A stretch of DNA of 34,648 bases from a virus. The stretch lies in IMG/VR virus record IMGVR_UViG_3300044630_000279, positions 1-34,648 of that record; one strand, written 5' to 3'. The stretch's first letter is position 1, and each line of letters begins with the position of its first letter. The notes below the pieces were generated by a model that was not told where the DNA came from, made no database searches, and saw only the letters and a list, made by a program, of their open reading frames with translations. Positions 9,576-19,449 of this stretch are shown piece after piece. Made by a program: the position numbers and the translations under genes.

Positions 9576-9738
9576 CTTTAAATACTTTCTCTACATTACC
9601 AGTAGAAGGATGGAGTTCGTATTCATATTCTTTAATTGTCTCAACAGAAGATGGTTTCTTCTTACCAAAAATCTTATCAAAGTTGGCTTCAAAGATTTCT
9701 CTATCAGTAAATGGTCTGGGTGTTGATCCTTTGCTCAT
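9565..9738 (-). CDS. Conserved small phage protein MSKGSTPRPF type, probably leaderless
   Basis: 57 residues starting at 9738. The beginning MSKGSTPRPF, then FEANFDKIFGKK, is a pattern seen in many tailed phages near the early or regulatory region. Function is unknown. I chose this start over an upstream ATG at 9768 because the protein pattern begins here and the upstream codons lie inside the promoter. The -10 box ends six bases before the ATG, so transcription should begin at or near the A of the start codon and leave no Shine-Dalgarno. Confidence 0.75.
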   Translation of the reverse strand: MSKGSTPRPFTDREIFEANFDKIFGKKKPSSVETIKEYEYELHPSTGNVEKVFKDGS

Positions 9739-9744
9739 ATGCTC

Positions 9745-9773
9745 AATATATATCTTATAGATATACAAGTCAA
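9745..9773 (-). promoter_or_regulatory. Leftward sigma70-type promoter
   Basis: On the minus strand TTGACT (9773-9768) and TATATT (9750-9745) are separated by exactly 17 bp. It is the only strong promoter upstream of the leftward genes and would serve the whole minus block from 9738 onwards. Its -35 box pairs as an inverted repeat with that of the plus-strand promoter. Confidence 0.8.
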
Positions 9774-9814: not shown

Positions 9815-9820
9815 ACTCAT

Positions 9821-10257
9821 ACGGGGCCATTACCCAGCCCTCCTAAATGTAGTAGCTGACAGATAGGGATAAACGTGTTTAATCGGTGGATTCTCCTTAA
9901 CGGTTGCTCTCGGATGAGATCAAGTAACAGTATCGGGGATCAGACCACTGGGGATGTAGCGTAGTGCATTACATCTAAACTAGATAAACGAGAAGCTACA
10001 ATCCATCTGGATTAGTAAGATAATTTAAACAATACTGTTTATTATCGGGTTAGGTCTATTATTCGCACGAACTCTATCACATGATCTTCTATATTACCTA
10101 TAAGCTACTAGATACCCTGGTGTTTGCTTTGTACTTAATCTATATATTTGTAAAGGCAGTCAGTAGGTAAGGTTTGCTTTTGTCAAGACATACCATCTAC
10201 CAGACACCCTTTGATATCATATCGTATCAATAATGAGATCAATTGTTCTCTTTTCTA
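9821..10257 (+). ncRNA. Candidate large structured phage RNA (about 440 nt)
   Basis: There is no credible coding frame on either strand, yet helices nest without conflict. The 5' hairpin is GGGGC/GCCCT (9823-9841). An 8-bp closing helix pairs TAGTAGCT 9850-9857 with AGCTACTA 10103-10110. Inside it: (1) 9884-9889/9945-9950 with 9892-9896/9935-9939, GTTGC/GTAAC 9903-9928 and TCTC-GGAT-GAGA 9908-9919; (2) a three-way junction closed by GGATGTAGC 9952-9960 with 9995-10004 (one bulged A), carrying GTAG-TGCA-TTAC and ATCTA-AAC-TAGAT; (3) an 11-bp hairpin 10019-10046 with tetraloop ATAC; (4) TAGGT/ACCTA 10051-10100. A second domain is closed by GGTGT/ACACC 10119-10208, with hairpins 10126-10157 and 10163-10200. 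Weak terminator-like hairpins end it. Size and phage setting recall GOLLD or ROOL RNAs, but I cannot confirm class membership. Confidence 0.6.
10211..10256 (+). terminator. Weak terminator-like end of the structured RNA
   Basis: The hairpin TTGATA/TATCAA (10211-10230) is followed by a second hairpin, GAGA/TCTC closed over CAATTG (10235-10250), and then TTTTCT (10251-10256). Stems are AU-rich, so termination would be partial at best. It marks where the helices of the upstream RNA stop. Confidence 0.35.
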
Positions 10258-10392
10258 CTACAAAAGTTATACTCCAGTAAAACAAATGTGTAATATGCTA
10301 CACAGTTTATTAAAGTTTCATGCACTTTTAGAGACTATGTATATGATTGTGTTAAGTAATCTCAAAAAAGTAGGAAAAATTTGTGTGGGATA

Positions 10393-10421
10393 CCCTCCCT
10401 ATAGGTGGGCTATAGGGGGGG
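10393..10421. repeat. 12-bp perfect inverted repeat (hairpin)
   Basis: CCCTCCCTATAG (10393-10404) pairs with CTATAGGGGGGG (10410-10421) over a 5-nt loop GTGGG, with one G-T pair on the plus strand. It is the strongest hairpin in the hub. No T-run follows on either strand, so it is not a normal terminator. A single-strand initiation signal or RNA-stabilising 3' end is possible. Confidence 0.75.
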
Positions 10422-10440
10422 CAACATGTGCCTTCACGAA

Positions 10441-10498
10441 TTATGAAAGTCATCTCAAATAATAGGGCATCTTATGAAATCATTGATGTATAGGGCAT
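10441..10498. repeat. Iteron-like direct repeats
   Basis: Two imperfect copies share TTATGAAA(G)TCAT at the left and TAGGGCAT at the right: 10441-10470 and 10472-10498, next to each other. Their halves sit about three helical turns apart. TTGATGTAT inside the second copy recurs at about 10551. They lie close to the 3' end of the winged-helix gene. Confidence 0.55.
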
Positions 10499-10562
10499 GT
10501 CATCGAAGCCCTGTGAATTATTAAGGATGCCAAAGGAACGTATAGCCGTCTTGATGTATGCT

Positions 10563-11174
10563 CTATGAACCTAGAGCCATGCGGGTTTTGACTTCAGATG
10601 GTGTTAAGCCCTGTGAAAGCAAGCGTTCAGCAAGGATCAGGTCAGCTTCTTTTGAGATACTCATAAACAAGCTAGTTAAGTCATCATCTTCCTGAATTGC
10701 TGATTGATTAACCTTCAATGGTTGCACGCTATCCTCTAACTGATTGATAACTTTATTAGTCTTTAATATCTCACTGATATCAGCATTAGTGAATTGATGC
10801 TCTTTTAAATCATCATCTTTAATCTTTTCGTCGTAGATAATCCGCCTAGTATTGCCTTTCAACATAGGAAAATAGTTTGACTTTGTTTCAATAATGCCTT
10901 GTGCTTCTAACTTGTTTAGATGTTTGAGGATGTTTTGAGGGCTGCACTTTAAATCTTTTGCAATAGTCTTTAGACTAACAAAACTATAGCCGCCTCGATT
11001 GCAATAACTAGCAAGGATTGCCAATACTCTTAAATTCTCCCCTGATACTTTTCTATTTAAAAAGGCCTTCAAAGGAACCACACAGAAGCGCCTTTGATCC
11101 TCATTTTTAACTGTCTTTAGCTTTATTTGCTCAGGGATATGATAAGTTTTATTTATTGAATTGCTGTCATTCAT
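10563..11174 (-). CDS. Winged-helix DNA-binding protein, replication-initiator-like
   Basis: 203 residues. Residues about 44-110 form a winged helix: GENLRVLAILASYCN, GYSFVSLKTIAKDLKCS, the recognition helix SPQNILKHLNKLEAQGII, then a wing (RRIIYDE). The basic N-terminus and acidic C-terminus are unlike simple MarR repressors and resemble replisome-organiser or plasmid Rep N-domains. Iteron-like repeats directly downstream fit an initiator that binds them. Autoregulation is possible through the dyad at 11206-11230. The start at 11174 (MNDSN) lies six bases after a -10 box, so the mRNA may be leaderless. The alternative is a transcription regulator. Confidence 0.65.
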   Translation of the reverse strand: MNDSNSINKTYHIPEQIKLKTVKNEDQRRFCVVPLKAFLNRKVSGENLRVLAILASYCNRGGYSFVSLKTIAKDLKCSPQNILKHLNKLEAQGIIETKSNYFPMLKGNTRRIIYDEKIKDDDLKEHQFTNADISEILKTNKVINQLEDSVQPLKVNQSAIQEDDDLTSLFMSISKEADLILAERLLSQGLTPSEVKTRMALGS

Positions 11175-13176: not shown

Positions 13177-13403
13177 AAATTCAATATGAAGTGCAAGAGT
13201 TTTGCTTACGCGATGGCTGGATTAATAATTGGTCTTATGAAGATGAAAAAGGGAATGAGATCAAAACCACATTTTCAACGCGAGAAGATGCGCAAGCTGA
13301 ACTTGATTACTTTTTCGAGCAATACCAATTCGAGTTTGAAAGCGGGAACATTCAAGACCCGCCAACGCGTGAAGATTTCCGCATTGCTGAGGTCTCATTA
13401 TGA
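13173..13403 (+). CDS. Conserved small protein of plasmid/phage accessory type
   Basis: 76 residues. YEVQEFCLRDGWINNWSYED, then TFSTREDAQAELDYFF and DFRIAEV, forms a pattern seen in many short proteins from plasmids and phages (QxFxLCDGWVNTW..., TFxTxxEAxxxLxxF). No function is known. It overlaps both the upstream gene and the recombinase by four bases, so these are co-translated. Confidence 0.65.
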   Translation: MKIQYEVQEFCLRDGWINNWSYEDEKGNEIKTTFSTREDAQAELDYFFEQYQFEFESGNIQDPPTREDFRIAEVSL

Positions 13404-14083
13404 AATTTATAGCTTATTATCGAGTAAGCACTGATAAGCAAGGCCAAAGCGGGCTAGGTTTAGAAGCTCAAAGAACTATATGTTACGCCTACGCGCGCAG
13501 CATAAACGCGGAAATCATCTCAGAATATACCGACATCGAGAGCGGCTCTCATAATGATAGGCCTGAGCTGCTCAAGGCGTTGGCATTATTGGAAATTGAG
13601 AATGGTTCTCGTTTACTTGTAGCGAAGCAATGTAGGCTGACGCGATCGGTAGCATTGATGAGTAGCCTATTGGAAAAGAAGGTGCCGCTTACCATAGCGG
13701 AAACACCCGAGGCTAGCATATTTGAACTTCACATCCGAGCGGTACTCAATGAGGAAACGAGGCGCCAAATCTCGATCAATACGCGCAATGCGTTAATGGC
13801 CGCCAAAGCACGTGGGGTGCGCCTAGGCGCGCCAAAAGAGATGATGAAAATCATATCTGTCAAAGGCGGTCAGGCACAAGCCAAAGTTAAAATAGCCTAC
13901 GCACTCAAAATCAAACCTATGTTTGACTTAGCCATAGAGAATTGTGGCAAACCTTCTTGTCGGAATATCGCAAAGAAGCTCAATGAACTAGGCGTTAAAA
14001 CATACTCAGGTAGTACGTGGACAGCGCCAAATGTATCTTATTATTTACACCACATCAAAGACAAGGAGAACATAAGATGGTAG
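13400..14083 (+). CDS. Serine recombinase (resolvase/invertase family)
   Basis: 227 residues. The N-terminal catalytic domain has YYRVSTDKQGQSGLGLEAQR with nucleophile Ser10 and Arg8. SRLLVAKQCRLTRS corresponds to the DRLxR region. HIRAVLNEETRRQISINTRNALMAAKARG is the long E helix, and GAPK starts a small C-terminal DNA-binding domain with a helix-turn-helix (SCRNIAKKLNELGVKTYSG). The size fits small resolvases, not large integrases. Roles could be genome multimer resolution, inversion or integration. GC content is locally higher (two 60-base samples near 13741-13860 are 50% or above), which suggests a separate origin. It overlaps both neighbours. Confidence 0.9.
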   Translation: MKFIAYYRVSTDKQGQSGLGLEAQRTICYAYARSINAEIISEYTDIESGSHNDRPELLKALALLEIENGSRLLVAKQCRLTRSVALMSSLLEKKVPLTIAETPEASIFELHIRAVLNEETRRQISINTRNALMAAKARGVRLGAPKEMMKIISVKGGQAQAKVKIAYALKIKPMFDLAIENCGKPSCRNIAKKLNELGVKTYSGSTWTAPNVSYYLHHIKDKENIRW

Positions 14084-16400: not shown

Positions 16401-16754
16401 ATGTTAGATATTGCAGCAGTCATGTGTATGAGTTTAACCATGTTCCATGAAGCCAGAGGTGAACCTATCTCTGGCCAAGTGGCAGTGGGGTATGTGCTTT
16501 ATCGGAGAGCTGACTTTGACCAAAAGAATATATGCTCGGAGACTTTCAAACCACACCAGTTTGAATGGACTAAAAAAACAAAGCATGTCCCGCCTTACAA
16601 AACACTCAAACCATTCATAGAATTATCCCAAAAAATTATCCAACAACAAATCAAAGACAGTAGCAAGGGAGCTAGTTACTTTCATAATGTTAAGATGGAT
16701 AATCAATGGGGTATGAAGCCAAGAACTATTATTAACAATCATATATTTTATTAG
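16401..16754 (+). CDS. SleB-like cell-wall hydrolase
   Basis: 117 residues. MCMSLTMFHEARGEPISGQVAVGYVLYRR matches the start of the SleB/Hydrolase_2 domain with catalytic Glu17 in the EARGE motif. QFEWTKK and ASYFHN are later family marks. The enzyme cleaves peptidoglycan glycan strands. No signal peptide is clear, so export would need a holin or another route. It lies in the rightward block, away from the GH24 lysozyme, so the phage has two muralytic enzymes. AGGAGACT precedes the ATG. Confidence 0.88.
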   Translation: MLDIAAVMCMSLTMFHEARGEPISGQVAVGYVLYRRADFDQKNICSETFKPHQFEWTKKTKHVPPYKTLKPFIELSQKIIQQQIKDSSKGASYFHNVKMDNQWGMKPRTIINNHIFY

Positions 16755-19107: not shown

Positions 19108-19449
19108 CTAAAATTCCTCTCTATTAAATTTGTATAAATCACAGATGATATTAACATATTTGTTAAACTTCTTTTCATGTGCATCGAAGTCATTGTGTCC
19201 ATGATACCAAAGCATACAATGGATCATCTCATGCATAAGTGTTTCAGATATCTTTAAGTATGTATCATTAGAGATATCTATTTGTATTCTAGTAGGCTCT
19301 GTAAGAAAGTATCCAAGCACCTCACCTTTAGTATTGATGATACTAAAATTAACCTTGTGCGGTGCTGGCATTTTGTAGCCATTGAACGGAGGTAGCCCAA
19401 CAAAACAAGCATACATCTTACGCAAGTTTTGTTTGGTAAGTAGCTTCAT
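19108..19449 (-). CDS. SprT-like zinc metalloprotease
   Basis: 113 residues. The metal motif LMHEMIHCMLW gives His73-Glu74-x-x-His77 and a third ligand likely at His91 (FDAHEKKFN). The preceding strand (RIQIDISNDTYLKISETL) fits the SprT-like fold. The protein is shorter than bacterial SprT, but phage forms of this size are common. Substrate is unknown. Start and stop couple it to the neighbours by one base upstream and three bases downstream. Confidence 0.82.
   Translation of the reverse strand: MKLLTKQNLRKMYACFVGLPPFNGYKMPAPHKVNFSIINTKGEVLGYFLTEPTRIQIDISNDTYLKISETLMHEMIHCMLWYHGHNDFDAHEKKFNKYVNIICDLYKFNREEF

Follow-up and report, generated by a model that had tools for sequence, protein, structure and literature searches.

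DnaA-dependent replication origins are built from DnaA boxes, a GC cluster and AT-rich DNA in series, and the origins of iteron-type plasmids and lambdoid phages lie next to the gene of their initiator. The basal unwinding system of the bacterial chromosomal origin, oriC, is treated in PMC6669920 and PMC8287927. For Methylophilales phage MEP301 (MW452941), no DNA or RNA polymerase has been reported (PMC8024684); its record annotates neither of the two things that we describe below, a GC tract with an AT box and a structured RNA, and the terms noncoding and intergenic do not occur in its paper. GOLLD and ROOL are large phage and environmental noncoding RNAs (PMC12286853). Our literature searches returned nothing specific on the RNA or on phage origins of the kind described here.

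The window, the whole 34,648-nucleotide stretch of viral DNA analysed here, encodes a terminase with 85% identity to that of MEP301, and its gene order resembles that of MEP301. A phage without a DNA polymerase or helicase gene had been predicted, and we agree: a domain search detected neither DNA_pol_A nor DnaB_C in the window, and no polymerase or helicase is found among its other scanned proteins. DNA polymerase A was likewise found neither in the window nor in the ten relatives tested, and among these genomes only the 60-kb G002 has a match to DnaB_C. The relatives compared throughout are metagenomic contigs.

The interval 10258-10562 was originally proposed to hold an iteron-like origin beside a Rep-like winged-helix gene. 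It probably does hold a replication origin, on other grounds than those first given. Comparing its sequence with those of its relatives, we consider it rather likely that 10364-10562 would act as an origin made of a conserved core and an adjacent 203-aa initiator, for which DnaA boxes can substitute in relatives. What stands of the proposed pairing of an origin with an adjacent initiator is carried by the conserved element at 10364-10421, the DnaA-box arrays of relatives and the PHROG matches of the protein; the iteron argument does not stand. The features of the locus are as follows.

10563-11174, minus strand: 203-aa winged-helix protein, initiator-like (HTH_36, PHROG matches, structure model)
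10422-10562, minus strand: initiator side of the core, the 3' flank of the winged-helix gene, which holds both repeats; DnaA-box arrays lie here in some relatives
10364-10421, minus strand: origin-like core (C tract, hairpin, AT box, T run)
10415-10421, minus strand (GGGGGGG on plus): C tract, part of the core
10393-10421, minus strand: hairpin, part of the core
10373-10383, minus strand: AT box CAAATTTTTCC, part of the core
10364-10369, minus strand: T run, part of the core
10210-10363, no strand: AT-rich stretch past the AT box, mostly an insert missing from most relatives
9820-10056, minus strand: structured RNA, length about 240 nt (203 bits with the covariance model, of which it is a seed member)
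9745-9773, minus strand: promoter-like site TTGACT-17-TATATT between the structured RNA and the leftward operon

Results

The winged-helix gene and the repeats beside it

The winged-helix gene does neighbour the interval, as predicted, and its 203-aa product matches HTH_36 with an E-value of 1e-10. The protein is 31% identical to MEP301 gp55, which is annotated as hypothetical, and its close relatives are encoded by 28 viral contigs. The replication-initiation PHROG family phrog_428 was matched by 30 of the 31 aligned family members. The AlphaFold2 model of the protein has a mean pLDDT of 74, and a Foldseek search with this model, which had been suggested as a comparison with Rep proteins, gave a divided answer: a Rep-DNA complex and an initiator structure (5kbj, 4pt7; E about 5e-4) are among the best PDB matches, and so are generic winged-helix repressors, with CodY and MarR winged helices on the list. 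The HTH_36 match, the phrog_428 matches and this mixed list make “initiator-like” a fair description, and “initiator” is what we infer from them. A winged-helix protein of about 141 aa that has no C-terminal part is encoded beyond the RNA in L038, L053, L055, L060, L068, L085 and their relatives.

Within the interval, the predicted 12-bp hairpin is present, with arms at 10393-10404 and 10410-10421 that are 92% complementary. The description of this DNA as AT-rich holds for 10210-10392 only (GC 27%) and not for the interval as a whole, whose GC of 36.7% compares with 38.3% for the window; 33% of the 305-bp windows in the genome have a GC content as low. The two adjacent repeats, of 30 nt (10441-10470) and 27 nt (10472-10498), also exist and have TTATGAAA, TCAT and TAGGGCAT in common, with imperfect agreement otherwise. 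Their iteron-like character could not be upheld: the best self-alignment of the interval scores 15.0, shuffled sequences average 13.96 (sd 2.28) and reach at least that score in 58 of 200 cases, and 61 of the 113 tiles of the whole window score as high as the interval itself. The repeat pair is also unconserved in relatives, at 28-52% identity in the bin 10451-10500 with the exception of the closest relatives. An alignment of the DNA 3' of the winged-helix gene shows that 10210-10350 is an insert missing from most relatives, and that two other stretches, unlike the insert and the repeats, are conserved. Several direct repeats beyond chance by the initiator gene, as would mark an iteron origin, were thus not found in the interval; an initiator-like gene does adjoin it at 10563-11174, coding for a putative initiator with a winged helix and a place in the replication-initiation PHROG family.

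A conserved tract and AT box 3' of the initiator-like gene

On the minus strand, the conserved element runs from a C or G tract through the AT box, CAA(A)TTTTT[CG], to a T run, and in 72 of 75 distinct elements the start of the tract lies 37-41 nt from the AT box. We counted its occurrence in 129 distinct loci that bear the pattern of the neighbouring RNA and have enough upstream sequence. The AT box is present in the expected region upstream of the RNA in 69 of these loci, where dinucleotide shuffling predicts 1.5, and the AT box together with the tract in 56, where it predicts 0.00; the element definition had been refined on the same data prior to counting, and these expectations overstate the number of independent events because distinct loci have common ancestry. 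From the AT box onward, the DNA is AT-richer than its own locus in 114 of 124 cases. The elements thus show a GC cluster followed at a fixed distance by AT-rich DNA, as in a DnaA-type origin. Relatives differ in whether the tract is C-rich or G-rich (e.g. L038, L068, L085, L103 and L037 versus L051, L053 and L060); both variants occupy the equivalent place, and the orientation of the AT box is unchanged.

The initiator gene has the element at its 3' end in most groups. One phage group (L166-L173, L177, L180, L183 and L204-L207) has the RNA inverted, divergent from the initiator gene and on its other side, and there too the tract and box adjoin the 3' end of this gene. Because the element keeps this position despite the inverted RNA, it belongs with the initiator and not with the RNA. 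An inverted repeat, GCTAAA..TTTAGC, occurs 5' of the tract in 17 of the 75 elements with 0 expected. In MEP301 and several group A relatives this candidate binding site falls close to the stop codon of the initiator gene, and the window has a degenerate version of it. The GC-skew minimum, at 9599, is near the element; it is confounded by transcription direction, and we therefore reject GC skew as proof of an origin.

DnaA-box arrays in place of the putative initiator

In groups whose shortened (~141 aa) winged-helix gene lies beyond the RNA, several members have perfect DnaA boxes directly before the tract. At least one perfect DnaA box is present in 9 of 75 elements against 0.18 expected. These nine loci hold 22 perfect boxes, all in a single orientation, in the 1350 nt before the tract, compared with 4 in 66.6 kb elsewhere, which amounts to an enrichment of about 270-fold; independent events are few, since the arrays stem from a few related groups. 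Among the 53 loci whose tract directly follows the end of the initiator gene, 52 have no DnaA box, and L189 has both. The end of the initiator gene thus sits where relatives have a DnaA array, which suggests that both feed one core. In six elements whose initiator is displaced, this side lacks both an initiator and perfect DnaA boxes; our model does not explain them.

Computation shows that the core is conserved, has a fixed geometry and adjoins the initiator gene at that gene's 3' end, and that some relatives have DnaA-box arrays; on this basis we propose the following course of events for origin activity at 10364-10562. The 203-aa protein would bind the DNA that separates its own gene from the tract, would then part the strands of the AT box and of the AT-rich DNA past it, and would recruit the helicase and replisome of the host. 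The initiator alone would perform this opening in the window; in relatives without an initiator gene on that side, DnaA-box arrays would substitute for it, and host DnaA would open the common core. Several points count against this model: no binding site of the initiator was identified, winged helices of this kind also occur as repressors, and the window's own element has no DnaA box before its GC tract.

A structured RNA flanked by the element and the leftward operon

Highly conserved noncoding DNA at 9820-10056, outside the coordinates of the original prediction, lies between the origin-like element and the leftward operon and matches a structured RNA present in more than 120 viral contigs, among them phages without this initiator. 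A pattern made from its two most conserved parts retrieved 118 stretches from IMG/VR, and a looser pattern gave at least 120 matches and at least 61 further loci. The covariance model, built from 21 sequences, matched 69 of 71 loci in a first set, and all 35 in a second set composed of 34 looser-pattern loci and MW202825 (weakest match L216, E 9e-4). The two misses of the first set, L143 and L144, were the two pattern hits among the bacterial chromosomes of genome_contigs, so that chromosomal copies of the RNA were discarded as a candidate.

In the first set, 87.5% of cells are paired against 66.6% in shuffled alignments, with a covariation of 0.371 against 0.119; in the second set the corresponding values are 87.9% against 59.2% and 0.373 against 0.092, all of these figures being inflated since the alignments were fitted to the structure. 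Shifting the partner by 1-3 columns lowers pairing to 33-51%, and the stems are visible in raw sequence, for example as TGAG:CTCA, TTGG:CCAA, GCGG:CCGC and GGCC:GGCC at a single position. Compensatory base changes, the mark of a structured RNA, are thus found in the helices. Helix P4 is paired in just ~60% of cells, and a long-range helix P1 (AACAGUAU:AUACUGUU) that would form a pseudoknot with P4 fits some groups only and was omitted from the model. The imbalance of G-U over A-C in hairpins P2, P3 and P5, 47 versus 24, favours the minus strand, which we take with moderate confidence as the RNA strand from this sequence bias; folding energies do not tell one strand from the other, and a sequence folded singly has no lower energy than its shuffles. 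No Rfam family matched at gathering score in the window or 12 relatives, relaxed thresholds yielded nothing relevant, and a known RNA family or tRNA identity was accordingly dropped for 9820-10056.

Each of 18 records has a single copy of the RNA, some of the non-MEP301-type ones being fragments, and the initiator occurs only in the 10 MEP301-type records. The neighbours and orientation of the RNA also vary, from the initiator, primase-helicase, YqaJ and RecT-like genes to the terminase. For these reasons the RNA is probably an element independent of the origin core and initiator. A general role as cis leader of the late operon was rejected because L108 and L145 have the flanking genes on the other strand, and our preferred guess is a transcribed RNA that may bind a conserved host factor. 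Several relatives and MEP301 carry TTGACA-16/17-TATACT or TATATT at the place equivalent to 9745-9773 of the window.

Some further observations concern the surroundings of the RNA. In L042, L063, L081 and L114 the RNA is followed by another element, a hairpin with a loop that may pair to downstream sequence; MW202484 (L146 5995-6110) has this element without the RNA. Read on the opposite strand, the element is terminator-like. In L084, unrelated sequence stands in place of the 5' half of the RNA, packaging genes recur in inverted orientation on both sides, and this contig is probably misassembled. A serine recombinase with a resolvase domain and a weak Recombinase-domain match (13400-14083, plus strand, in the window) lies near the RNA in many relatives; the window also encodes an SprT-like protein (19108-19449, minus strand) and a cell wall hydrolase (16401-16754, plus strand).

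Discussion

Alternative explanations

We regard it as rather unlikely that the 203-aa protein is merely a transcriptional regulator, with the GC tract and AT box as its operator or as a transcription terminator where its gene ends. The generic winged-helix matches to ArsR, Lrp, MarR and CodY proteins would suit a regulator, and in many members a hairpin could form from the tract ahead of the T run, as in a terminator; however, the T run lies at least 10 nt from the hairpin, a terminator scan reports none there, and in some relatives (e.g. L068, L085) the G tract has no matching C tract nearby. Both operator and terminator would leave the adjoining same-orientation DnaA-box arrays unexplained.

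By analogy with ColE1 and ssi sites, the structured RNA might itself be the origin, its transcript or single-stranded DNA priming replication or loading the host primase. That it is kept as one copy per genome, near replication and recombination genes across many phage types, is conserved as a single-stranded structure and occurs where no polymerase A was found would all agree with such a role. We nonetheless hold it to be very unlikely, given that the skew minimum is not coupled to the position of the RNA where transcription and position are separable (MW202825, G002, G004) and that DnaA boxes and AT box go with the tract rather than with the RNA. An iteron origin as first predicted, in which the repeats at 10441-10498 would be the binding sites of the initiator, seems highly improbable from the sequence comparisons. 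One repeat copy overlaps a site kept among near relatives as GACATCCCTTATA, and the 140 nt beside the tract, tested alone on the same sequence in L003, give z = 2.9, so that a weak locus-specific repeat signal persists. Against this, the repeats are not significant within the interval, the pair is unconserved, and the mean direct-repeat z over 53 initiator-type elements is just 0.54 (se 0.25), even with one outlier, a DnaA array, counted in.

Implications

The preferred reading, a conserved core fed by an adjacent initiator, would supply a testable origin for a mostly uncultured phage group in which polymerase A was not found. On this reading, a DnaA-box array could stand in for an initiator gene, and the reverse, at a fixed core; such interchange, if true, would be a natural experiment on origin opening and on phage takeover of host replication. 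Separately, the analysis brings out a widely distributed, strongly covarying RNA missing from Rfam. MEP301, which has a cultured host, carries both the origin-like element and the RNA and is hence experimentally tractable. A wider conjecture joins the two: a widespread group of environmental phages without polymerase A might use one core with a modular input side, phage initiator or host DnaA boxes, and a single-copy RNA that starts or switches replication by binding a conserved host factor. As a whole, we find this conjecture decidedly doubtful.

Comparison with known systems

The relatives' elements resemble oriC in that DnaA boxes of one orientation lead to a GC cluster and then to AT-rich DNA. 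They differ from it in belonging to a phage genome, and the window has the 3' end of an initiator gene instead of DnaA boxes. Like iteron-type plasmids and lambdoid phages, the window has an initiator-like winged-helix gene beside AT-rich and GC-rich origin-like DNA and encodes neither polymerase A nor a helicase of the DnaB type, and it differs from them in that significant conserved iterons were not found. GOLLD and ROOL are similar to the window's RNA in that comparative genomics revealed them as structured RNAs of bacteria or phages, with unclear function, whereas the window's RNA measures ~240 nt and is matched by no Rfam family. The initiator of MEP301 is only 31% identical to that of the window. 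The two phages agree in gene order, and both have the tract and box, the RNA and the initiator gene, whose homologue in MEP301 is gp55.
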